Shown: in pieces, positions 3,863 to 19,223 of the stretch
How the letters are laid out: the number at the start of each line of letters is the position of its first letter
Numbering within the stretch: the stretch's first letter is position 1
Source: an uncultured Mycobacteriales bacterium
Lineage (GTDB): Bacteria > Actinomycetota > Actinomycetes > Mycobacteriales > CADCTP01
Reading direction: 5' to 3'
Assembly: GCA_902805565.1 (NCBI GenBank)
Contig: CADCTP010000329.1
Coordinates: 1-33,007 of the forward strand
DNA: 33,007 nt
Program-made: the position numbers and the translations under genes
The notes under the pieces: generated by a model
What the model saw: the letters and a program-made list of their open reading frames with translations, nothing else
Database searches by the model: none
What the model was told of the DNA's origin: nothing

Positions 3863-4636
3863 TCAGCGGGCGAAGGACTCCGCGTGGGCGGCGAACTCGT
3901 ACGTCGCCTCCAGGGCGCCCGGCCGCGGTGGCTGGGACGGATCCCAGCCCAGCGAGCGGTCCGCCAGCACCTGCACGAGCAGTGGCCGCCACCGCGGGTC
4001 GAGGGCGTCGTGGGCCCAGTCCAGGGCTCCGCGTTTGGAGGTCACCGCGCCCGTGTGCAGGGTGTAGAGGACGCGGCAGTAGGTGGAGACGAGGTAGCGC
4101 TGGGTCCAGGCGATGTCGAACGGCGCCCACTGCCGGACGCCGGCCAGCACCTCCGGCAGCGCCGCGCGGGCCTCCGCGCGCAGCGCCTCGGGCGGGACCT
4201 CGTCCACGACCTCCTCGACCGGGGGGCCGGCGAGCCTGATGCCGTGGTGTCGCAGGATCCACCGGGCGTGCGGGTTGTTGCAGTGGGTGTCCCAGATCAG
4301 CTCGCGGTGGCCGTGGTCGTTGAACAGCCAGGGCGTGCCGCTGCCGGCGAGCGTGCGCAGGGAGGCGACGTCGGCGTAGGACCCCTCGAGGTTCTGCGGC
4401 CAGTAGCCGTCGCGGGTCGGGATCTCGTCGTGCAGCCGGCGCAGTGCCGTCTCGATCCGGCCGGCCGGCAGGACGGTGGTCGCGATGATGAAGTCGCAGT
4501 CGCTGTTCAGGTCGCCGGCACCCAGGGCGAAGGAGCCCTGGACGTAGGCGCCGACGAAGGTGTCGCCGAGGATGTCGCGGGCCGAGCCGACGAGGTCCGC
4601 CAGGACGGCGTCCAGCTCGGGATAGGGCGTGACCAT
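3863..4636 (-). CDS. Nucleotidyltransferase with DUF4111 domain (aminoglycoside adenylyltransferase-like)
   Basis: The N-terminus carries the nucleotidyltransferase fold signature GSFALGAGDLNSDCDF (about residues 34-49): a Gly-Ser motif and two acidic residues for metal and nucleotide binding. The C-terminal half resembles DUF4111, with RVLYTLHTGAVTSKRGALDW as the most family-like stretch. Relatives include streptomycin/spectinomycin 3''-adenylyltransferases, but many actinomycete members have no shown resistance role, so the substrate is open. The ATG has GGAG seven bases upstream. It converges with the acyltransferase (54-bp gap) and has a 420-bp upstream region that it may share with the divergent MDR gene. 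Confidence 0.78.
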   Translation of the reverse strand: MVTPYPELDAVLADLVGSARDILGDTFVGAYVQGSFALGAGDLNSDCDFIIATTVLPAGRIETALRRLHDEIPTRDGYWPQNLEGSYADVASLRTLAGSGTPWLFNDHGHRELIWDTHCNNPHARWILRHHGIRLAGPPVEEVVDEVPPEALRAEARAALPEVLAGVRQWAPFDIAWTQRYLVSTYCRVLYTLHTGAVTSKRGALDWAHDALDPRWRPLLVQVLADRSLGWDPSQPPRPGALEATYEFAAHAESFAR

Positions 4637-6801: not shown

Positions 6802-7472
6802 GCCGGCGGCTGAGGGACAACGGCCTGTCGCTGTTCTTCGGGACGATCTTCCTGCTGGCGCTGGTCGGGCAGGCGATCGCCGGGCTGGCGGACCACAACA
6901 ACCGGCAGCTGGCCGCCGGCGGCGACCCGGTCTCGATCTGGCAGTTCGTCACCTCCTCCAGCTTCGCCGTGGACGTCGCGGAGAACTGGCAGTCGGAGTA
7001 CCTGCAGTTCCTGTTGATGATCTTCGCGACGGTGTGGCTGGTGCAGCGCGGCTCGACCGAGTCCGCGGAACTCGACGAGGTCGGGACGGAGTCGGACGAG
7101 GAGCAGAAGGTCGGGCGGCACGCCGACGACGACTCGCCCCGCTGGGCCAGCGCGGGCGGCTGGCGCACCGGCCTCTACTCGACGTCGCTCGGCCTGGTGA
7201 TGGGCCTGCTCTTCGCCGGCTCGTGGCTGGCGCAGTCGATCGCCGGGCGGGCGGCGTACAACGCCGAGCAGCTGTCGGACTTCGAGGACCCGGTGTCCTG
7301 GGCCGGGTACGTCACCTCCGCCGACTTCTGGAACCGCACCTTCCAGAACTGGCAGTCGGAGTTCCTCGCCGTGCTGTCGATGGTGGTCCTGTCGGTCTAC
7401 CTCCGGCAGCGCGGCTCGGCGGAGTCCAAGCCGGTCGGCGCCGCGCACACGGCCACCGGCCTCGACGGCTGA
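6798..7472 (+). CDS. DUF6766-family membrane protein with internal duplication
   Basis: This 224-residue protein is built of two similar halves, about residues 7-93 and 127-213. Each half has two membrane helices, a soluble loop, and the closing signature NWQSE(Y/F)L followed by a helix and a (V/R)QRGS(T/A)ES end. The halves are joined by an acidic cytoplasmic linker (VGTESDEEQKVGRHADDD). I recognise this as the DUF6766 pattern, whose function is not established. Translation probably depends on the preceding micro-ORF through the GTGA overlap. It faces the patatin gene across an 85-bp gap. Confidence 0.8.
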   Translation: MSRRLRDNGLSLFFGTIFLLALVGQAIAGLADHNNRQLAAGGDPVSIWQFVTSSSFAVDVAENWQSEYLQFLLMIFATVWLVQRGSTESAELDEVGTESDEEQKVGRHADDDSPRWASAGGWRTGLYSTSLGLVMGLLFAGSWLAQSIAGRAAYNAEQLSDFEDPVSWAGYVTSADFWNRTFQNWQSEFLAVLSMVVLSVYLRQRGSAESKPVGAAHTATGLDG

Positions 7473-7510
7473 CCGCCCCGACCGCCGGCCCGCCGCTCCG
7501 GTCACGGGCG

Positions 7511-7546
7511 ACCGCGCCGGCCACCGCGCCGGCCACCGCGCCGGCC
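7511..7546. repeat. Three perfect 12-bp tandem repeats
   Basis: The unit ACCGCGCCGGCC occurs three times without interruption in the gap between the convergent DUF6766 and patatin genes. Each unit contains the palindrome GCCGGC, so it may form a weak hairpin in either transcript. It codes for nothing evident. Confidence 0.7.
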
Positions 7547-7557
7547 ACCCGCCGGGG

Positions 7558-8574
7558 TCAGGGTGCCTCGGTGCGGTCGGCGCGGGCCGGCGTGGCCGCG
7601 CGCCGGGTGGTCAGGTACTCCTCGAAGTCCCAGGTCTCCAGGAAGCGCTCGGCCGCCGACCGGCCCGACTCGTACAGCCGGGCGGCGGTGGCGGCGGTGA
7701 GGTCGAAGTCGGTCGAGCGGACCATCGACGTGTCGACGAAGATCGTGCGGCGGAGCACGTCCGGCCGGTTGAGGTGCATGCGGTCGTAGAAGCCGGTCAT
7801 CGTGGACAGCATCGCCCGGGACAGGCTGACCACGCCCCGCACCTCGTTGACCGCCGGCGCGTTCCGCGCGGACAGCTTGATCCCGAAGGTGGGCCACCGC
7901 GGCTGCTGGCCGTCGGTCCGGTCGAAGGCGTCGACCGGGAAGTTCGACAGCATGCCGCCGTCGACCAGCCAGGCCCGCCCGCCGTTGAGCTTGTCGGCAC
8001 AGCGGGCCGGGACGAAGAAGTACGGGATCGCCATCGACGCGCGGACGGCGTCGGCGACCGGCATCCCGTCCGGATCCATCCCGAACCTCGTCCGGTACGC
8101 GTACGGCAGCCGCACCAGCTCGCCCTGGGTGAGGTCGGACGCCATCGCGACGAACCGGAAGCCGCGGTCGGGATCCCGCAGCGCGGCGTCCGCGCCGGCG
8201 TCGGCCAGTCGCAGGTCGGCGAAGGTGTGGACGTCCCGCTCGGCCAGCATGTCGCTGACCCAGGAGCGCAGGTGGTCCCCGCGGCACCAGCCCTTGCGCA
8301 GCACGACCTGCGCGACCATCCCGGGCAGCAGGAGCCGGCCGAGCAGCGGCGGGTCCTGGAACCGCCGGTAGTCCAGGCCGTGCATCATCTCCTGGAGCCG
8401 GGTGGCCGGCGTGCCGGCCGCCACCAGGGCCCCGACGATGGCCCCGGCCGAGGTGCCGGCGACCTTGTGGAACCGGTAGCCCCGCTCCTCGAGCACCGAG
8501 ATCGCCCCCACCAGCGCGATCCCCTTCACCCCGCCGCCCTCGAGCACCAGGTCGGCGTCCGCCACCTTCGCCAT
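7558..8574 (-). CDS. Patatin-like phospholipase/acylhydrolase
   Basis: This protein of about 338 residues carries the patatin signatures in order: the oxyanion motif GGGVKGIA near residue 14, the nucleophile elbow GTSAG near residue 40, and the catalytic Asp motif DGG (LVDGGMLSNFPVD) near residue 205. Patatins use a Ser-Asp dyad to hydrolyse acyl chains from phospholipids. No signal peptide is seen, so it is probably cytoplasmic or peripheral. The ATG at 8574 is chosen because GAGGGGG lies just upstream; an in-frame ATG at 8616 has no such site. It lies downstream of lanD on the same strand but beyond a strong hairpin, so it is probably not part of the lanthipeptide operon. Confidence 0.88.
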   Translation of the reverse strand: MAKVADADLVLEGGGVKGIALVGAISVLEERGYRFHKVAGTSAGAIVGALVAAGTPATRLQEMMHGLDYRRFQDPPLLGRLLLPGMVAQVVLRKGWCRGDHLRSWVSDMLAERDVHTFADLRLADAGADAALRDPDRGFRFVAMASDLTQGELVRLPYAYRTRFGMDPDGMPVADAVRASMAIPYFFVPARCADKLNGGRAWLVDGGMLSNFPVDAFDRTDGQQPRWPTFGIKLSARNAPAVNEVRGVVSLSRAMLSTMTGFYDRMHLNRPDVLRRTIFVDTSMVRSTDFDLTAATAARLYESGRSAAERFLETWDFEEYLTTRRAATPARADRTEAP

Positions 8575-8690
8575 GTCCGCCCCCTCGAACGGTCGCCGGC
8601 CCTGGTCGGCCGACATGAAAAGGAGGCGGCGGGAGCCGGCTGAGATACACGGCTGTCGCGTCGGACGGGCCCGGGTCCGGTCGGGCGACG

Positions 8691-8730
8691 CCGGCGGCGG
8701 CCGGCCCGACGGTGGGCCGGCCGCCGCCGG
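8691..8730 (-). terminator. Strong hairpin at the end of the lanthipeptide operon
   Basis: Perfect 17-bp arms (8691-8707 and 8714-8730) flank a 6-base loop, and the repeat abuts the lanD stop codon. No T-run follows, as is common for actinobacterial terminators. Shorter outward complementary blocks (GGTCCGG at 8674-8680 and CCGGACC at 8742-8748) could extend the structure. Confidence 0.7.
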
Positions 8731-9306
8731 TCAGCCGGGGCCCGGACCGGCGCGGCGGGTGCGGGTGACCTCCCGGAGCAGCTCCACGGCCAGGGCCGGC
8801 GGCGGCATGGTGGCACCCGGGGTGACCTCGCCGGTGGCGACCTCGAAGCCGGGGCCGGCGACGGGGTCCACCACGACGTGCCCGTCCTCGCGGAGCGTGG
8901 CGACGTTGCGCCGCACGGCCGGGTTGTCCCACATCCGCGGGTTCATGTTGGGGAAGAAGACGATGCCCGGCTCGGCGGCGAGGATGGCCGCGGTCAGCGG
9001 GGACGGCGCGGCCCCGCGGGCGGCGTCGGCCAGGACGTTCGCCGAGGCGGGCAGCACGGTGAAGACCGAGGCCCACTGCGGCAGCACGACGTGCGCCGCC
9101 CGCCGGGCGGCGGGGGAGTCGGACGCGATCACCTCGTCGCAGAACAGCGCCAGCGTCTCGGCCGGCACCATCCGCTCCGCCGCCGCCGAGGTCACCACCT
9201 TGACCTCGGCGCCGAGCCGCACCTTCATCTCCAACAGGTACTGACACACCGAGACCACGCCGATGGAGCCGGAGACGCCCACCAGCACCCGCTCGACGCC
9301 GGTCAC
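8731..9306 (-). CDS. lanD: LanD-type peptidyl-cysteine decarboxylase (HFCD flavoprotein)
   Basis: This protein of about 191 residues belongs to the homo-oligomeric flavin-containing cysteine decarboxylases, with EpiD and MibD as models. Visible motifs are the N-terminal flavin-binding VGVSGSIG (residues 9-16), an active-site His (H72 in AAHVVLP), the PASAN motif (86-90) and the substrate-clamp motif PNMNPRMW (119-126). EpiD-type enzymes oxidatively decarboxylate the C-terminal Cys of a lanthipeptide precursor to an ene-thiol, which then closes an AviCys or AviMeCys ring. The motifs also occur in the CoA enzyme CoaC, but stand-alone size, cluster position and a precursor ending in Cys favour LanD. 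The GTG start overlaps the lanT stop (GTGA). It is the last gene before the terminator hairpin. Confidence 0.9.
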   Translation of the reverse strand: MTGVERVLVGVSGSIGVVSVCQYLLEMKVRLGAEVKVVTSAAAERMVPAETLALFCDEVIASDSPAARRAAHVVLPQWASVFTVLPASANVLADAARGAAPSPLTAAILAAEPGIVFFPNMNPRMWDNPAVRRNVATLREDGHVVVDPVAGPGFEVATGEVTPGATMPPPALAVELLREVTRTRRAGPGPG

Positions 9307-11462
9307 TTGCCCGCCAGGGAACGGTCGGACACCAGCTGGGTCTCCACCAGGGTCCGGTAGCGCCCGTCCCGGTCGAGCAGTTCCTCGTGCGTGCCGACCT
9401 CGACCACCTGGCCCTGGTGCAGGACGAGGATCAGGTCGGCGTCCTGCACGGTGCTCAGCCGGTGGGCGATGACGATCCGGGTGCACCGCAGCGGCCGCAG
9501 GTTGTCCTCCACCCGGCGTTCGGTCTCCGAGTCGAGGTGGCTGGTCGCCTCGTCCAGGAAGAGGATCGCCGGCCGGGCGGCGAGGGCGCGGGCCAGCGCC
9601 AGCCGCTGCCGCTGCCCGCCGGACAGCGCGTTGCCGCCCTCGCCCACGTACGTCCCGTAGCCCATGGGCATCGCGGCGATGTCGTCGTGGATGGCCGCCG
9701 CCCGCGCCGCCTCCTCCACCGCCTCCTGCGGCAGGTCGGTCTGGTGCAGCGCGATGGCGTTGCGGATCGACCCGCTGAACAGGAACGGCTCCTGGAGCAC
9801 CACGCCCATCCGGCGCCGTACGGCCGGCAGGTCGTACTGCTCGAGCGGGACGCCGTCCAGCAGGATCCGGCCGCCGCTGGTGGCGTACAGGCCGATCATC
9901 AGCTTGCCCAGCGTGCTCTTGCCGGCGCCGGTGTGGCCGACCAGCGCGACCTTCTGCCCCGGCTGGACGTCCACCGTCACGCCGGACACCGCCAGCGGGC
10001 CGCCGGTGGAGTACCGGAAGGAGACGTCCTCCAGGGTCAGCCGGCCGGTCAGCCGCTCGGGCACCAGCGACCCGGACCGCTCCGGGTCGGCGTCGACGAC
10101 GTCCTGCACCCGGCCGAACTCGGTCTGCAGGATCTGGATCTGCTCGACGCTGTCCATCAGCGAGTTGGCCGGCTGCAGGAACGCCGTGGCCACCGCGACC
10201 AGCGCGAGCGCGGTGCCGACCGTCATCGAGCCGGACAGCGCGAGCGCCGCCGCGAGCCAGATCAGCCCGAGGCTGGACACCGCGGTGATCGCGCCGAGCA
10301 GCCCGTCGTTGAGGGCCCGCAGCCGCTCGTTGCGCACGGAGATCGCCAGCTGCTGCCGGTAGAGCGTGCGCCAGCGGCCGAACGCGCTCTCCTCGGCCCC
10401 GGACGCCTTCACGGTGGCCACGCCGACCAGGACCTGGGACACGAAGCCCTGGGTCTGGCCGTTGGCGACCAGGTCGCGGGCCATCAGCTCGCGCAGCGGC
10501 CGGTAGAAGGTCAGCACCACGGCCAGCCGCAGCAGGCTCGCCAGCACGGCCAGCAGCGCGAACGGCGGCGAGATCGCCAGCAGCACGACCAGGTAGCCGA
10601 TCACCAGGCCGCCGTCCAGGACGGTCGCCACCAGCCGGCCGGTGACGACCTTGCGGATCGTGAGGGTGCTCTCGATCCGGGTCAGCAGGTCGCCGGACAG
10701 CCGCCGCTGGAAGAACGCGTACGGCAGGGAGAGCAGGTGCCCGACGAAGTCGGAGCCGAGCCGCTCGTCCATCCGCGCCTGCAGGCCGGCCACCATGAGG
10801 CCCCGGACGAGCAGCAGGACGGCCTGGGTCACCGCGACCGCGGCGATGCCCGCGGCCAGCAGCGGCAGCAGGTCGGTCCGGCCGTCCGGGATCACCTCGT
10901 CCACGATGACCTTGGTCAGCCCGGCCGGGATCAGCCCGGCCACCTGCAGCAGCAGGCTCATCCCGGCGACGAGGGCGAGCGTGCCGGGGGCGACGGCGAT
11001 CAGGCGGCGCAGGAACGCGCCGAGCGTCGCGGTCGGGCGGTAGTCCCCGGGCCGGAACGGCGCGGCCGGGACCAGCTCCAGCACGTGCCCGGAGTAGCCC
11101 TTGGTGAAGTCGTCCATGCTCATCCGCCGGCGCCCGCCGGCCGGGTCCACGATCCGGACCCGGCGCTCGGACATCCGCTCCACCACGACGTAGTGGTCGC
11201 CCTGCCAGTGCGCGATCAGCGGGAGGGCGAGGTCGGCGAGCATGGCCGGGGGCAGGCGCAGGCTGCGGCCCTCCATGCCGAAGCCCTCGGCGGCCTCCCG
11301 CAGCCGGCGCAGCGACGCGCCGTCCCGGCCGGAGCCGACCGCCTCCCGCACCTCCCGCATCGGGACCCGCCGCCCGTACGCGTGCAGCACCATCGTGACG
11401 CACGCCGCCCCGCAGTCCGGGGCGCTGGCCTGGCTGACGACCGGCACCCGGCCCCGGCTCAC
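9303..11462 (-). CDS. lanT: LanT: bifunctional C39 peptidase / ABC exporter for the lanthipeptide
   Basis: This 719-residue protein has three parts. The N-terminal C39 peptidase (about 1-130) has catalytic Cys17 (APDCGAAC), the oxyanion-hole Gln11, His90 (GDHYVVVE) and Asp106 (VDPAGG). A six-helix exporter domain spans about 150-430. The C-terminal ATPase has Walker A (GHTGAGKST), Q-loop (LQEPFLFSGS), signature (LSGGQRQRLALARA) and Walker B with DEATS. Such proteins cut the leader after a double-glycine-type site and export the modified core across the membrane. All catalytic residues are present, so it should be active. Its GTG start overlaps the lanM stop (GTGA), and its stop overlaps the lanD start, implying coupled synthesis of all three. 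Confidence 0.95.
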   Translation of the reverse strand: MSRGRVPVVSQASAPDCGAACVTMVLHAYGRRVPMREVREAVGSGRDGASLRRLREAAEGFGMEGRSLRLPPAMLADLALPLIAHWQGDHYVVVERMSERRVRIVDPAGGRRRMSMDDFTKGYSGHVLELVPAAPFRPGDYRPTATLGAFLRRLIAVAPGTLALVAGMSLLLQVAGLIPAGLTKVIVDEVIPDGRTDLLPLLAAGIAAVAVTQAVLLLVRGLMVAGLQARMDERLGSDFVGHLLSLPYAFFQRRLSGDLLTRIESTLTIRKVVTGRLVATVLDGGLVIGYLVVLLAISPPFALLAVLASLLRLAVVLTFYRPLRELMARDLVANGQTQGFVSQVLVGVATVKASGAEESAFGRWRTLYRQQLAISVRNERLRALNDGLLGAITAVSSLGLIWLAAALALSGSMTVGTALALVAVATAFLQPANSLMDSVEQIQILQTEFGRVQDVVDADPERSGSLVPERLTGRLTLEDVSFRYSTGGPLAVSGVTVDVQPGQKVALVGHTGAGKSTLGKLMIGLYATSGGRILLDGVPLEQYDLPAVRRRMGVVLQEPFLFSGSIRNAIALHQTDLPQEAVEEAARAAAIHDDIAAMPMGYGTYVGEGGNALSGGQRQRLALARALAARPAILFLDEATSHLDSETERRVEDNLRPLRCTRIVIAHRLSTVQDADLILVLHQGQVVEVGTHEELLDRDGRYRTLVETQLVSDRSLAGK

Positions 11463-14400
11463 GACCGGCCCTCACCCGGGACCGTGACCGGGTCCAGCAG
11501 CAGCAGGGACGGCATCTCGTCCGGGGCGGCGAGCCGGAGCAGCTGGTAGCCCATGCCGGCCATCCCGATCATGAAGCTGGGACTCGGGATCGGCAGCGGC
11601 AGCGCGGCCGGCCAGCCCAGCAGCCCGCCGGCGTCGACCGTCTCGGCGACGAGCCGTGGCAGCTGTTCCCGGGCGGTCCGGTCGCCGAGCACCCGGGCGG
11701 CCTGCAGCACGGTCTCCAGGTTCCCCAGGTCCCCGTGGCAGGCCGACAGCGTGGCGCCGAAGCCGTCGCGCAGCGTGGCCCGCAGCGCGAGCACCGCCTC
11801 CTCCTCCACCCGGGGGTCGGCGCCGCCCAGGTGGTCCAGCAGCGCGATCCGGGCCAGCCCGATGCCGGGCGCGCCGTGGCACCAGGCGACCACCTCCACC
11901 GGCTCGCCGCCCGCGCCCTGGCCGAGCAGCGCGGGGTCGCGCAGGTCCCGCCACGTGCCGGTGACCGGGTCGAAGGTGCCCCGCTCGTACGCCAGCGACG
12001 CCAGCGCCCCGTCCCGGAAGTCGGACCGGCCGGTGGCCGCGGCGAGCCGGCCGAGCGCGAGGGAGAAGCCGGAGGCGCCGTGGGACAGGCCGCCCAGCGG
12101 CACCTCCGGGCTGATGCCGGTGGTCCAGCCGATGCCGTCGCCGGCCGGCACCGACCGGGCCAGCAGGTGCTCCCCGGCCGCCACCGCGACGCCGAGCGCG
12201 CCGGTGGGGTCCTCGACCGCCCCGGCCACCGCCAGCCCGGCCAGCGCCAGGCCGGCCGCGCCGCCGACGACGTCGAGCACGGTGTCGGCGGCGATCCCGG
12301 CCCGCGCGGCGGCGAGCTCCGCCTCGGCCCGGGCCAGCAGGTCCGGCTCCCGCCACAGCATGCCGAGGCGGGCCAGCACGACGGCCACCCCGGCGTGCCC
12401 GGCGAAGAAGCCGCCCGGCAGCCCCTCCGGCGGCGTCCCGTCCAGCTGGGCCAGCATCGCCTCCGCCGCGGAGCGGGCGGTGTCGGTGTGCCGGTCCTCC
12501 CCGGTGAGCCGCCCCAGCTCGGCCAGGAACAGGGCGATGCCGGGCAGGCCGCCGTAGACGTCCAGGAAGGCGGGGCCCGCGCTCCACGCGCCCCGCTCGC
12601 CCATCTGCATCACCAGCCAGCTCAGCCCCTGGCGTTCGGGCAGGGCGCTGGCGCGGATGCGGTCGCCGAGGTCGCCGGCGACCCGGAGCAGGTCCGGCGG
12701 CGACGCGGCCGGCCGGGCCACCGGTGCGGCCCCGGGCCCGGCCGGGGAGCGGGCGCCGGCCGGGAGGGCCGCGGGGCGGCCGGCGGCCAGCGTGGCGAAG
12801 GAGCCGCGCAGCAGCCACAGCTGCCGGGCCAGGTCGTCCTCGCCGAGCGCGGCGATCCGCTCCCGGATCAGCTCGGCGGCCGGCCGGCGCAGCGCGTCGA
12901 CCAGTGAGCCGCCGGTGCCGGACTCCAGCGTGTGGGAGTGCACGGTCGTGGTGAACACCGGGATGTCGCCGCGCAGCAGGTCGACCTGCTCGGCCGGGAT
13001 CACCGTGGCCAGCTGCTCGTTGCGGCGCACGCCGGACCACAGCAGGTCCAGGTGCCGCTGCCGGTCGGCGTGGTCGCGCAGCAGCCACGGGTGGCTGCCC
13101 TCGTACAGCAGGCTGGCGTAGGTCGCGGTCGGCCGGACGATGACCCGCAGCGGCGCGCCGGCGAACCGGTCCAGCACCAGGGTCTCCAGCTCGTCCCGGA
13201 CGGCCAGCAGAGCGCGGTACGTGCTGAGGAAGCCGTGCTCGAGCCGGGCCAGGTGCTCGACGGGGGAGACCTCGGGCCGGCCGGGGATGCTCGGGCGGTG
13301 CCGGTCGGCCACCGGGACGGGCTGGTGCTCGTGCACCACCCGGATCTCATCGGTCCCGTCGCCGGTCACGGTCGGGACCGGCATCGGCGTCTGCTGGCCG
13401 CCCGCGGCGCCGATGCCGCTGAGGTCCAGGCCGGCGAGGGCGCCGCCGAGGAAGGCCGGCGAGGGGAGCAGGCCGCTGCGCAGCACCGAGCGGACCAGCG
13501 TCTGCGCGGCGGCCCGGATCGGCCCGTCGGTCATCCCGGCCAGCTCCGGCTGCAGCACCGACTCCAGGTCCAGCAGCACCGGGTGCGGGCCGGCCGCCAC
13601 CAGGTTCTCCGAGTGCAGGTCGGTCGCCTGCAGCAGGTAGAGCACGGCGACCAGGGCGCCGTGCCGCTCGTAGAAGTCGCCGGCCTCCGCCTCGGAGGAG
13701 CAGGGTGCGCCGGCGACGAACTCCTGCCACCCGTACCGGCCGTGGTCCAGCGACCGCGGCACGCGCAGCTCCGGGGTGATCCCGCGCCGGCCCAGCTCGG
13801 CGAGCAGCTCGGCGAACCGGACGTCCAGGGTGAGCGACCGCGGCTTGTAGACCACCCGGGCGCCGGAGGCGAAGCCGAGGATGGTGACCCGGCGGCCGCC
13901 CCGGTGCGGGTCGCCGGTCGGCGTCACCTCGACCAGCCGGTCGCCCGGCTCGACGCCGAGCCCGGCCAGGACGGCCCGGTCGGCCCGGAGCCGGGACAGC
14001 AGCTCGGTGACCGCCGCGTGCCACCGGTCGGTGCGCTCGACCAGGTCCCGGGCCAGGACCGGGTACTCGGCGAGCAGGTCGGCGACCCGGTCCGGCTCGG
14101 ACAGCCGGGCCAGCACCGCGCGGAAGCGTTCGGCCGGGTCCCCGTCGGCCGTCCCGTCGGCCGCCATGTCCAGGCGGGCGATGTTGATCTCGAGGATGAG
14201 GGTCCGCTGGGCGGTGAGCACCAGCAGCCCGGTGAGGTCGCCGAGCAGCGCCGGCAGCAGGCCGTCCCCGTCCACCTCCGCGCCGGACAGCAGCAGCGCC
14301 GAGCGGAGCCGGGTCGCCTCCTGCACCACGAACGGCAGCAGCGGCCGGGCGAAGTGGGCCCAGCCGGCGTCGAGGTCGGCCGCGCCCGGGGGCGCCTCGG

Positions 14401-14749: not shown

Positions 14750-14778
14750 CGTCTCCTCGCCTCCTGGGACAGGGCGGA

Positions 14779-14815
14779 CCGGTGGGAGCCCGGGGTGTCC
14801 GCGGGCTCCCACCGG
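14779..14815 (-). terminator. Hairpin between lanA and lanM, probable attenuator
   Basis: Perfect 14-bp arms (14779-14792 and 14802-14815) with a 9-base loop lie entirely within the 91-bp lanA-lanM gap. No T-run follows. In lantibiotic operons a hairpin here commonly lets most transcripts end after the precursor gene, so peptide exceeds enzyme. That role is inferred from position. Confidence 0.65.
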
Positions 14816-14840
14816 CATCAGTGGTGCACCGTCACCGCAC

Positions 14841-15083
14841 TCAGCAGTACGGGCACAGCGGGATGGTCAGGAACAGCGCGCTGTAGTAGAACGGCGCGCA
14901 GGGCAGCGCGGTCGGGCAGGGAACGGTGCACGGGCCGGTCGGGAAGGCGCCGTTGACCTCGTCCTCCAGCATGGGAGCGATCTGACCCGCCGGGTTCGCC
15001 GGGATCAGCGCCTGCTCCTCCGCGCTCAGCGACCCGAAGTAGTCGGGGTCGCGCCACGCACGCGCCACGGTGCTCGTGGTCAT
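14841..15083 (-). CDS. lanA: LanA: mersacidin-type class II lanthipeptide precursor
   Basis: The 80-residue precursor has a leader (1-46) containing RAWRDPDYFGSLSAEE, then NPAG at 30-33, as in the mersacidin/lichenicidin leader family. It ends EDEVNGA, a GA-type site for C39 cleavage after Ala46. The predicted 34-residue core (47-80) has no charged residue, seven Pro and many aromatics. It holds five Cys (52, 56, 62, 77, 80) and five Ser/Thr (T49, T53, T58, S68, T73). Short ring units TGPC, TVPC and TALPC are followed by a hydrophobic stretch and a C-terminal LCPYC. The ATG has GAGAGGAA about six bases upstream. The neighbouring lanM, lanT and lanD supply modification, export and C-terminal decarboxylation. 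I do not recognise this core among characterised lanthipeptides. Confidence 0.93.
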   Translation of the reverse strand: MTTSTVARAWRDPDYFGSLSAEEQALIPANPAGQIAPMLEDEVNGAFPTGPCTVPCPTALPCAPFYYSALFLTIPLCPYC

Positions 15084-15270: not shown

Positions 15271-16452
15271 TCAGGACCCGTCGCCGGGCCGGTCGCCGCC
15301 CGTGGCGGCGGTCCACCGCAGCAGCACGACCGCCGCGTGCAGCCGCTGGATGCCGTCCGCCGCGCCCAGGTCGGCCCCGGTCAGCGCCCGGATGCGGGCC
15401 ACCCGGTACGCCAGCGTCCGGCGGTGCACGTGCAGCGCGGCGGCCGCCGCGGTCCGGTCCAGCCGGTGCCGGAAGAGGGTCTCCAGGGTCAGCGGCAGGT
15501 CCGGGCCGGCCGACAGCGTGTCCAGCAGCGCGAGCAGGTCGCCGCGGGCCGCGGGGTCCCGCAGCAGGGCCAGCTCCACCGCCCCGTCGGCCGGTCCGAG
15601 CGGTCCCGGCGGGGATTCCGGGCGGGCGGCGGCGATGTCGGCCAGCACCCGCGCCTGCTCGTACGCCGCGGGCACGGCGGCCAGGTCGACCGCCGTCGCG
15701 TACCCGGACGGCAGCCGGCCGTGCCGCTCCACCAGGTCGACGGCGTCGGGCGTCGGGCGCCAGTTCCGGTCGGCGGCGGCCCCCTCGGGCCGGGGCAGCA
15801 GGTGCACCCGCTCGGCCGCCCGGCGCAGGACCAGGGCTCCCGCCCGCCGGCACGGCGCGGTGCAGGCCGGGGCGCCGAGATCCCCGGGGCCGGACAGCGG
15901 CTCGCGGCTGACCAGCACGAAGTAGCCCGCCCCCAGCCGGATCCCGTGCGCGCCGGCCAGGTCCTGCACCGGCTCGCCGGCCAGCAGTCCCTCCACCACC
16001 CGCTCCTGCGGGGTGCGCAGGCGGGTGCCGGAGCTGCCCGTGGTGTACAGCCGCCGCAGGTGCTGCGTCAGGGCAGCGGACGCCCGGTCCAGCCGGTGCA
16101 GCAGCTCGCGCAGCTCCGCCCGCTCGTCCAGGCCGCACAGCTGCCACAGGGCCTGCTGGACGGCGAAGCCGATCACCTCGCCCTTCTCCAGGTAGTCCTC
16201 GAGCGGCAGCCGCCGGTCGGCGAAGAAGAGGCACGAGGCGGCGAAGGCGTCGTACGACTCGGGGTCCGGCGGGTCGCCGGCGCCGGGCCGCAGCAGCGTC
16301 TCCAGCGACTGCCGGACCGGGACCCCGATGTACCGGTGCCGCTCGGCCTCGGTCAGTGTCCGCAGGATCGGCACCTTCTCCAACCCGGCCGCCAGGGCCG
16401 CATCGGCGATCTCGTCGGCGTGGTCGAGGATTCGGCGGTCGAGGTCGCGCAC
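15271..16452 (-). CDS. PucR-type helix-turn-helix transcriptional regulator
   Basis: This regulator of about 393 residues has a C-terminal PucR-like HTH: LFRHRLDRTAAAAALHVHRR then TLAYRVARIRALTG, typical of this family. The N-terminal ~160 residues form a helical domain (RDLDRRILDHADEIADAALA...) often found in actinobacterial PucR proteins. The middle is a weakly conserved GGDEF-like segment. The GTG start has GAGGGGG six bases upstream. Located directly upstream of lanA on the same strand, it is a strong candidate for a pathway-specific regulator. It could be read with lanA or separated from it by the palindrome. Its ligand is unknown. Confidence 0.85.
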   Translation of the reverse strand: MRDLDRRILDHADEIADAALAAGLEKVPILRTLTEAERHRYIGVPVRQSLETLLRPGAGDPPDPESYDAFAASCLFFADRRLPLEDYLEKGEVIGFAVQQALWQLCGLDERAELRELLHRLDRASAALTQHLRRLYTTGSSGTRLRTPQERVVEGLLAGEPVQDLAGAHGIRLGAGYFVLVSREPLSGPGDLGAPACTAPCRRAGALVLRRAAERVHLLPRPEGAAADRNWRPTPDAVDLVERHGRLPSGYATAVDLAAVPAAYEQARVLADIAAARPESPPGPLGPADGAVELALLRDPAARGDLLALLDTLSAGPDLPLTLETLFRHRLDRTAAAAALHVHRRTLAYRVARIRALTGADLGAADGIQRLHAAVVLLRWTAATGGDRPGDGS

Positions 16453-16601: not shown

Positions 16602-19223
16602 CTACCGCCCGTCCGGCTGGAGCAGACCGAGGCTGCGCGCGACCACGACGGCTTCGAGCCGGGTCTTCACCCCCAGTTTCCCGAACAGGTTGTAGAGGTG
16701 CTTCTTCACCGTGCCGGTGGACACGAACAGCCGCGCGGCGATCTCCGTGTTCGACAGCCCGGCGCCGAGCAGCCGGAGGATCTGCCGCTCCCGCGGGGTG
16801 AGCAGGACGGGGGCGGCGGGGCCGGTGCCGGGCCGGCCCGCTGCCGCCGCGGCCAGCAGCGTGCGCAGGTAGTCGCGGAACCGGCCGGGCGACGCGTACA
16901 TCGTCCGGAGCAGCCCGGTCACCGCCTCGCCCTCGTCGAGGAACGTCCGGACGTAGCCTTCCGGCTCGGCCAGCTCGAGGGCGTGCGCGAGCGCCGACCG
17001 GGCCCCGGCCGGGTCGCCGGCGGCCAGCCGGGCCGTGGCCTGGAGCACCCGGGCACCGATGACGGCGCCCAGGGCGCCGCGGTCCGCCTCCTCGGTCACC
17101 ACCGCCCGCAGCAGCCGCTCGGCGGTGTCCGGCCGGCCCACCGCCAGGTGCAGCCGGGCGCGGGTGAGCGGGTGCAGCCGGGCCGCCGGGTCGGTGACCG
17201 TACGCCGCCACCGCTCCACCGCCGCCCGGTCACCGCGGATCACCCACAGCCGCAGTCGCGTGTCGTCGATCAGCCGGGCCGACCGCTCCGGCAGCTCGTG
17301 CCCGCCGAGCACCCGCTCGGCCGCGGTGACGGCGGCGTCGGCGGCCGGTTCGTCCCCGGCCGCCTGGCGGGCCAGCGCCAGCGTCAGCGACCCGAACAGG
17401 ACGACGTTGAGCAGCTCGCCGCGGCGGCCCAGCTCGACGGCCCGCTCCAGGTGCCGCGCGGCCTCATCGAGCCGGTTCCACTCGTGCAGCACCTCGCCGA
17501 GGCCGGCGTGCAGCGCGCCCGCGGCGGCGAGGGTGCCACCGGCCAGACTCTCGGCGTCCCGGAGGCCGTCCTCGTACGTGGCCGCGGCCGCGTGCAGCCG
17601 GCCGCCCTTGCACCGCGTCCGGCCCAGGCCACCGGCCGCGGTCAGCAGGGTCGGTCCGTCCCCGGCGGCGCGGCTGCGGGTCATCGCCTCCCGGAAGGTC
17701 GCCATGGCGGCCGGCAGCCGACCGCCCAGCGACTCCGCCCGGCCCTTGGTCAGCAGGATCGCGCTGGCCGCGGCCGGATCGGTGTCGCCGATCAGGTCCA
17801 CCGCCGCGTCCGCCAGCGTGACGGCCCGCTCGGTCTCCCCCGCGACAGTGGCCAGGTACGCCGCCAGCGCGGCCAGCGTCGCCCGGACCCGCGGCGGCTG
17901 GCCCGGCACGCCCCCGGGGGCGGCGGCGAACGCCCGCTCCGCCTCCCGGACCGCGTCGGCGACGGTGCCCCACTCGGCGCGGCGCATGGCGACCTCGGCG
18001 CGGCGCAGGAACAGCGCCGGCCGGTCGGCCCACTGCGCGGCCGGGAGCCGCCGGAGCCAGCGGTCCACCGTCGCCACCTCGCCCCGGGCCAGCGCGGCCT
18101 CGCCGGCCCGGTCGATCAGCTCCGCCGCCCGGGCCCAGGCGGCGCCGGCCAGGCAGTGGGTGATCGCCTCCTCGAGGCGGCCGTGGGAGACGTACCATTC
18201 CGCGGCCCGCTGGTGGACCAGCCGCAGCCGGTCGGGCGACCGGGCGAGCCGGCTGCGCAGGAAGTCGGCGAACATCGGGTGGTACCGGTAGCAGTGCCGC
18301 TCCCCGTCCAGCGGGACGACGAACAGGTGCTCCCGGTCCAGCAGTTCGAGCATCCGCTGGCAGTCCGACCGCTGGGTCACCGCGGCGCACAAGGGCGCGG
18401 TCAGCCGGTCCAGCACGGAGATGTCGGTGAGGAAGTCGCGCACCGGCGCGGGCTGGCCCCGCAGGACCTCCTCGGCCAGGTAGTCCTGCGTGAACCGGGA
18501 CGTCCCGGCGGACAGGTCGGCCACCGAACCGGTACGGGACAGGTGCAGCGCCAGCAGCCGCAGCCCGCCCATCCACCCCTCCGTCAGCCGCTCCACCTCG
18601 GCCAGCTCCGCCGGCCCCAGCGGCAGTCCGAGCCGGTCCACCAGCAGCTCGTGCGTCTCCGCCGGGGTGAACCGGAGGTCCTCCGGGCCCAGCTCGTCCA
18701 GCAGCCCCTCGACGCGCCAGCGCGGCAGCGGCAGGCCCGGCACCGAACGCCCGCCGAGCACCAGCCGGACGGACGCCGGGAGGGCGTCGACCAGCCGGGC
18801 CATCCCGCGATCCACCGCGTCGCCGGCCAGGTGGTAGTCGTCGAGGACGAGGACCAGCGGGTCGCAGTCCCCGAGGTCCTCGGCCAGCGTGCGCACCGCG
18901 TCGAGCTCCGCCGTCGGCTCGCCGGACCGCAGCAGGGCCAGCGCCCGGGCGCCGAGCCGGGGGTCGCCGGTACGCAGCAACCGCACCAGGCCGGCCCAGA
19001 ACCGGGCGGGGTCGACGTCCTCCGGGTCGAGGCCGGCCCCGTGGACCCGGCGACCGGCGCCGCGCTCCACGTCCTGCCACTGTGCCAGCGCGACCGTCTT
19101 GCCGTACCCGGCCGGCGCGGTCACCACGGTCACCGGGTGGCGGTGCACGAGGGCCAGCCGGCGGGTCAGCCGGTCCCTGGGCAGCACTCCGGCGGACCGC
19201 GGCGGCCGACGTGTCGCGTGCAC
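16602..19223 (-). CDS. LAL-family (MalT-like) LuxR transcriptional activator
   Basis: This 873-residue regulator has an N-terminal NTPase with Walker A (TAPAGYGKT, about residues 35-43) and a Walker B-like LVLVLDDYH near 130. A long central region of helical, TPR-like repeats follows. The C-terminal LuxR HTH (about 805-870) contains LTPRERQILRLLGAGLSNTE and VSTGTVKKHLYNLFGKLG. Large ATP-binding LuxR (LAL) proteins often activate antibiotic clusters in actinomycetes. The GTG start has GGGAGG five bases upstream. It lies upstream of the PucR gene on the same strand, so both may control the lanthipeptide operon. It is divergent from the methyltransferase region. Cluster membership is inferred from position only. 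Confidence 0.88.
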   Translation of the reverse strand: MHATRRPPRSAGVLPRDRLTRRLALVHRHPVTVVTAPAGYGKTVALAQWQDVERGAGRRVHGAGLDPEDVDPARFWAGLVRLLRTGDPRLGARALALLRSGEPTAELDAVRTLAEDLGDCDPLVLVLDDYHLAGDAVDRGMARLVDALPASVRLVLGGRSVPGLPLPRWRVEGLLDELGPEDLRFTPAETHELLVDRLGLPLGPAELAEVERLTEGWMGGLRLLALHLSRTGSVADLSAGTSRFTQDYLAEEVLRGQPAPVRDFLTDISVLDRLTAPLCAAVTQRSDCQRMLELLDREHLFVVPLDGERHCYRYHPMFADFLRSRLARSPDRLRLVHQRAAEWYVSHGRLEEAITHCLAGAAWARAAELIDRAGEAALARGEVATVDRWLRRLPAAQWADRPALFLRRAEVAMRRAEWGTVADAVREAERAFAAAPGGVPGQPPRVRATLAALAAYLATVAGETERAVTLADAAVDLIGDTDPAAASAILLTKGRAESLGGRLPAAMATFREAMTRSRAAGDGPTLLTAAGGLGRTRCKGGRLHAAAATYEDGLRDAESLAGGTLAAAGALHAGLGEVLHEWNRLDEAARHLERAVELGRRGELLNVVLFGSLTLALARQAAGDEPAADAAVTAAERVLGGHELPERSARLIDDTRLRLWVIRGDRAAVERWRRTVTDPAARLHPLTRARLHLAVGRPDTAERLLRAVVTEEADRGALGAVIGARVLQATARLAAGDPAGARSALAHALELAEPEGYVRTFLDEGEAVTGLLRTMYASPGRFRDYLRTLLAAAAAGRPGTGPAAPVLLTPRERQILRLLGAGLSNTEIAARLFVSTGTVKKHLYNLFGKLGVKTRLEAVVVARSLGLLQPDGR

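Follow-up and report, generated by a model that had tools for sequence, protein, structure and literature searches.

The 33,007-nucleotide stretch of DNA analyzed here (the window) contains lanA, lanM, lanT and lanD, in that order and all in one direction, which make up an apparently intact operon of the class II lanthipeptide type that includes a decarboxylase gene (Table 1). Homology gives good support to the prediction that its product is a class II lanthipeptide whose C-terminal Cys is oxidatively decarboxylated. The kind is a known one, a mersacidin-family lanthipeptide with a Cys decarboxylase, and the core sequence and the long spacing at its tail appear to be new in the sets searched; the last ring would need to be unusual, or else bigger than those reported to date.

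Table 1. Features of the lanAMTD operon and its neighbors in the window
Feature	Coordinates	Strand	Basis
lanA, precursor peptide, 80 aa (leader 1-46, core 47-80)	14841..15083	-	translation, TIGR03898
Core peptide FPTGPCTVPCPTALPCAPFYYSALFLTIPLCPYC	14844..14945	-	residues 47-80, after the NGA site
lanM, class II lanthipeptide synthetase, 1096 aa	11459..14749	-	TIGR03897, DUF4135 and LANC_like
lanT, C39 peptidase and ABC exporter, 719 aa	9303..11462	-	PF03412, PF00664, PF00005
lanD, predicted flavin-dependent Cys decarboxylase, MrsD type, 191 aa	8731..9306	-	PF02441
lanA-lanM gap with strong GC hairpin, no T run	14750..14843	-	RNA fold
PucR-type regulator, upstream of lanA	15271..16452	-	PF13556, E 1.6e-14
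Patatin-like phospholipase, 114 bases after lanD	7558..8616	-	PF01734, E 4.9e-35

Genes of the lanAMTD operon

The genes lanM and lanT, as well as lanT and lanD, overlap by 4 bases. LanM matches TIGR03897 (E 3.6e-220) and has the dehydratase (DUF4135) and Zn-type LanC (LANC_like) domains of a class II synthetase, with the motifs DLHSEN at 377, WCHG at 956 and CHGDLGN at 1004 kept; its best solved relative is LicM2 (PDB 6st5, E 1.9e-91). LanT matches the C39 peptidase family PF03412 (E 8.7e-34) as well as PF00664 and PF00005, and carries the motifs DCGAAC at 16, DHYVV at 89 and VDP at 105.

The presence of a LanD, claimed in an earlier sequence-only reading of this DNA, was confirmed. As in clusters for AviMeCys peptides, a PF02441 gene with its catalytic residues kept lies in the operon of the precursor, and its motifs (H72, PASAN at 86, PNMN at 119, MW at 125) are intact. 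Its best PDB match with phmmer is MrsD (1p3y, E 1.6e-38), at 135.8 bits versus 76.6 bits for EpiD and 69.5 bits for CoaBC, and in the phmmer alignment H72 faces MrsD His75, the catalytic His. Two other PF02441 genes are found elsewhere in the genome (the better-scoring one is a 407-aa frame), so a housekeeping function need not explain lanD; in view of these genes and the best match to MrsD, LanD was rejected as the CoaC of this genome.

The precursor peptide and its relatives

The translation of positions 14841-15083 (minus strand) is MTTSTVARAWRDPDYFGSLSAEEQALIPANPAGQIAPMLEDEVNGAFPTGPCTVPCPTALPCAPFYYSALFLTIPLCPYC, followed by the stop codon at 14841-14843. The leader of LanA matches the mersacidin/lichenicidin leader family TIGR03898 of NCBIfam (E 4.5e-11) with 42.5 bits, the cut-off being 23.5 bits, and lanA is the sole gene of the genome above this cut-off. 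It has a GC3 of 0.95, and a ribosome-site-like GAGAGGA is found ahead of its ATG. The leader profile, the GC3 and the operon context argue against a spurious open reading frame; as expected of a precursor, LanA joins the cognate leader to a core of Ser, Thr and Cys residues, and its gene adjoins lanM.

The residues listed in the sequence-only reading (T49, T53, T58, S68 and T73, with C52, C56, C62, C77 and C80, the latter being the last of LanA) agree with the translation, as do the local units TGPC, TVPC and TALPC; the range 14841-14943 given for them lies in the right open reading frame, but is shifted by 2-3 bases relative to the actual core. A further local unit is T73-IPL-C77. When the 34 core residues were shuffled 200,000 times with their composition kept, at least three [ST]x(1-2)PC units were obtained in 0.4% of the shuffles, Cys was the last residue in 15%, and in 17% an earlier free Ser/Thr was available to each Cys. 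What stands out in the core is the TxPC repetition. The numbers of Ser/Thr and Cys are indeed equal (five each), which had been read as a sign that all of them can pair, but with 17% of the shuffles allowing the same this is weak evidence alone, and so is the Cys end, at 15%.

The system resembles that of mersacidin (mrsA/M/T/D) in the TIGR03898 leader, the class II LanM, the C39 LanT cutting at GA, the MrsD-type decarboxylase and the C-terminal Cys. Unlike in mersacidin, the core of LanA, which is unrelated, is longer (34 versus 20 residues) and lacks TxTxEC, the lipid II-binding motif of mersacidin-type antibiotics (PMC7268733). Considering that a mersacidin-type leader is found here without the lipid II motif, the target of the LanA product, if any, is likely to be different.

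Cleavage after Ala46, as proposed before, is supported by the C39 peptidase and by the leader end DEVNGA, which lines up with GG/GA sites in nine related precursors. For mersacidin, cutting by MrsT occurs before G-6, and AprE takes off the six residues that remain (PMC9486960). Only FPT lies between NGA and the first ring unit of the LanA core, so a second trimming step would not obviously be needed. The computed mass of core 47-80 is 3665.72 Da unmodified and 3575.67 Da with five dehydrations and an intact carboxylate; the predicted neutral monoisotopic mass is 3529.66 Da, with five dehydrations and a further 46.005 lost. The previous proposal of five dehydrations and a loss of 46 Da holds as the default prediction, with up to five dehydrations, backed by the homology of the operon, by LanD and by the cleavage site, and the same kind of mass-prediction rule is applied by antiSMASH (PMC3930743).

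No relatives of the whole precursor were found in the genome_contigs set, in viral contigs or in one genome of the same genus, and the 399 genomes of the order gave leader matches only, with other cores. The family search in 395 genomes of the class detected TIGR03898 precursors in four other genomes, and plasmids provided two leader matches to the LanA precursor. For comparison, we read 13-20 kb of each of ten LanM loci (L070-L078, L081) from the class, order and plasmid matches. These actinobacterial clusters share the leader family, LanM (approximately 33-38% identity), LanT (approximately 40-47%) and many Cys ends with the operon described here, but their cores are unrelated (one, in L073, shares TTVPC), and LanD was detected in none of the ten (0/10), the only matches being at chance level (E 0.4 and 0.85). 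Its decarboxylase thus sets the operon apart from the other sampled actinobacterial clusters of the family, which showed none. Two of these loci (L076 and L077) contain two LanM genes and paired Cys-rich precursors of the mersacidin family, with the look of two-component systems; the paired precursors end in Cys, with no LanD nearby.

Among the 11 precursors read from the ten LanD-free clusters, 8 end in Cys. The Cys end of LanA, although typical of AviMeCys peptides and previously taken as evidence for one, is therefore uninformative: it does not predict AviMeCys, and the lanD gene does. Within this family, lanD is the real evidence for decarboxylation. The same counts speak for the possibility that the product is a class II lanthipeptide of the ordinary sort, its carboxylate intact and LanD being inactive on LanA or serving another substrate. 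LanD relatives in genome_contigs are distant (31-36% identity). The nearest LanD found, in the 395 genomes of the class (G663, 61% over 158 aa), is encoded in a YcaO (thiopeptide-like) cluster without a LanM match rather than in a lan cluster, so a separate origin of lanD is possible and the gene may have been acquired separately. Arguments against an intact carboxylate are the 4-base overlap of lanD with lanT, the intact catalytic motifs of LanD, and the fact that among solved structures MrsD, from the mersacidin pathway, is closest to it; we consider an intact carboxylate quite unlikely.

The locus of this nearest LanD had the look of a sister cluster, but this reading was rejected: it has YcaO and nitroreductase genes and a Cys-rich peptide, and LanM gave no match there. 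Its positions 6808-13738 (L053) code for YcaO, a nitroreductase, LanD and a 52-aa peptide ending in SDCGCWCCSCC, which looks thiopeptide-like.

The C-terminal end of the product

The best explanation, and in our view the probable one, is a pathway of LanM, LanD and LanT that leads to a C-terminal two-ring end made from S68, T73, C77 and C80. LanM would bind the mersacidin-type leader, dehydrate the core Ser/Thr and add Cys thiols, giving the small MeLan rings T49-C52, T53-C56 and T58-C62; LanD would turn C80 into an enethiol by oxidative decarboxylation; the C-terminal end would be shut by the two rings; and LanT would cut after Ala46 and export the 34-residue product. Every chemical step here is deduced from homology, and the genes, motifs, order and residues are read directly. 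The weakest step is the partner of C80.

Going upstream from C80, the first Ser/Thr is T73, seven residues away (i-7) and beyond C77; there is no Ser/Thr 3-6 residues before C80, and the documented acceptors are found at i-3 to i-5. Mersacidin has its AviMeCys ring at T15-C20, so that its last acceptor is five residues before the last Cys, unlike in LanA. Epidermin and mersacidin have interlocked C-terminal rings with AviCys. In epidermin and gallidermin, as in the system proposed here, the C-terminal Cys is decarboxylated and the C-terminal rings overlap, but these are class I (LanB/LanC) peptides with an FMN enzyme, EpiD, to which LanD is less close than to MrsD, and with SxxC spacing. This epidermin/gallidermin-type spacing of 3 was also found here in a Priestia precursor ending in GSWNSFCC. 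P78-Y79, which directly precede C80, do not match the known substrate signature of EpiD. Rosin, massatide and the sis family have a LanD-made C-terminal enethiol and a Thr-derived acceptor in common with our proposal, but differ in their T-X4-C spacing (mat and sis families, massatide T12-C17, PMC11162475; rosin T20-C25, PMC12291118), and class V lanthipeptides have LanK/Y/X enzymes in place of LanM (PMC12291118, PMC11162475), with a dedicated cyclase, RosX, shown for this class (PMC12291118). Hence, an AviMeCys ring in the LanA product is not routine, its acceptor spacing exceeding the documented 3-5, and with T73 at i-7 and C77 between, the ring partner of C80 is not readable from the sequence. 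A homologous core was not found in the searched sets, hence there is no conservation behind any of the rings.

There is about an even chance that LanM and LanD form an AviMeCys/AviCys ring larger than those described in the sources consulted, either T73-C80 (7 apart) or S68-C80 (12 apart), interlocked with or enclosing the C77 ring. The likeliest end would be an S68-C77 Lan interlocked with a T73-C80 AviMeCys (8-residue ring), a tentative assignment that falls somewhat short of even; by analogy, it would copy the interlocking of epidermin and mersacidin, and it has the smaller AviMeCys ring. A nested end, with T73-C77 inside S68-C80, would be less likely and is rather doubtful; it uses the local TIPLC unit and needs the twelve-residue separation of S68 and C80. 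The suggestion in the sequence-only reading that C77 and C80 join T73 or S68 in nested or overlapping rings was a fair one, although the sequence does not choose between them.

The same T73-IPL-C77 unit, which resembles T58-ALP-C62, and the lack of an acceptor at documented spacings from C80 would also fit a decarboxylation without AviMeCys, in which T73-C77 forms a five-residue MeLan, S68 stays as Dha and the C80 enethiol is left open, lost or oxidized. We regard this as unlikely: S68 would lack a partner although the Ser/Thr and Cys counts of the core otherwise match, and an enethiol on its own should be reactive. The LanD products in PMC11162475 and PMC12291118 are cyclized, while in cypemycin the decarboxylase is not enough for ring formation according to Ding et al. 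2018, as cited in PMC10373908. Less probable still is an end like that of cypemycin, where the acceptor Dha comes from Cys and not from Ser (PMC4979651). In such an end C77 would lose its sulfur to become Dha and take the C80 enethiol, giving a four-residue AviCys ring, C77-P-Y-C80, with the i-3 spacing of epidermin. However, no linaridin-type enzyme gene was noticed in the cluster, there would be an excess of two dehydrated residues, and no LanM is known to take sulfur from Cys. With no Ser/Thr acceptor at the usual distance from C80, the structure of the product would tell whether a LanM can close a larger AviMeCys ring or the enethiol can stay open, and thereby bear on acceptor choice by LanD-made enethiols in LanM systems.

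Surroundings of the operon

The gap between lanA and lanM folds with -51.5 kcal/mol (z -3.3), and none of 200 shuffles was as good. The hairpin, GGTGGGAGCCCG...CGGGCTCCCACC, is not terminator-like; it is possibly an attenuator or a protector of the mRNA end, and could set the lanA:lanM ratio.

LanFEG-type immunity genes, an extra protease or an oxidase were not noticed among the genes of the window that were examined. The mersacidin cluster differs in this respect, having MrsFGE-type immunity genes, and in its regulators, mrsR/K, in place of which a PucR-type regulator is found here. The PucR-type gene is possibly the regulator of the cluster, to which the patatin-like gene may belong. LanM, the PucR-type regulator and the patatin-like phospholipase had no match in a second genome from the genus, a pattern compatible with an island specific to the species. 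Upstream of the PucR-type gene there is a large MalT/LuxR-type regulator (TPR_MalT and GerE; 16602-19223, minus strand), another possible regulator of the cluster, and positions 3863-4636 of the same strand code for an AadA_C-type nucleotidyltransferase (aminoglycoside adenylyltransferase C-terminal domain).
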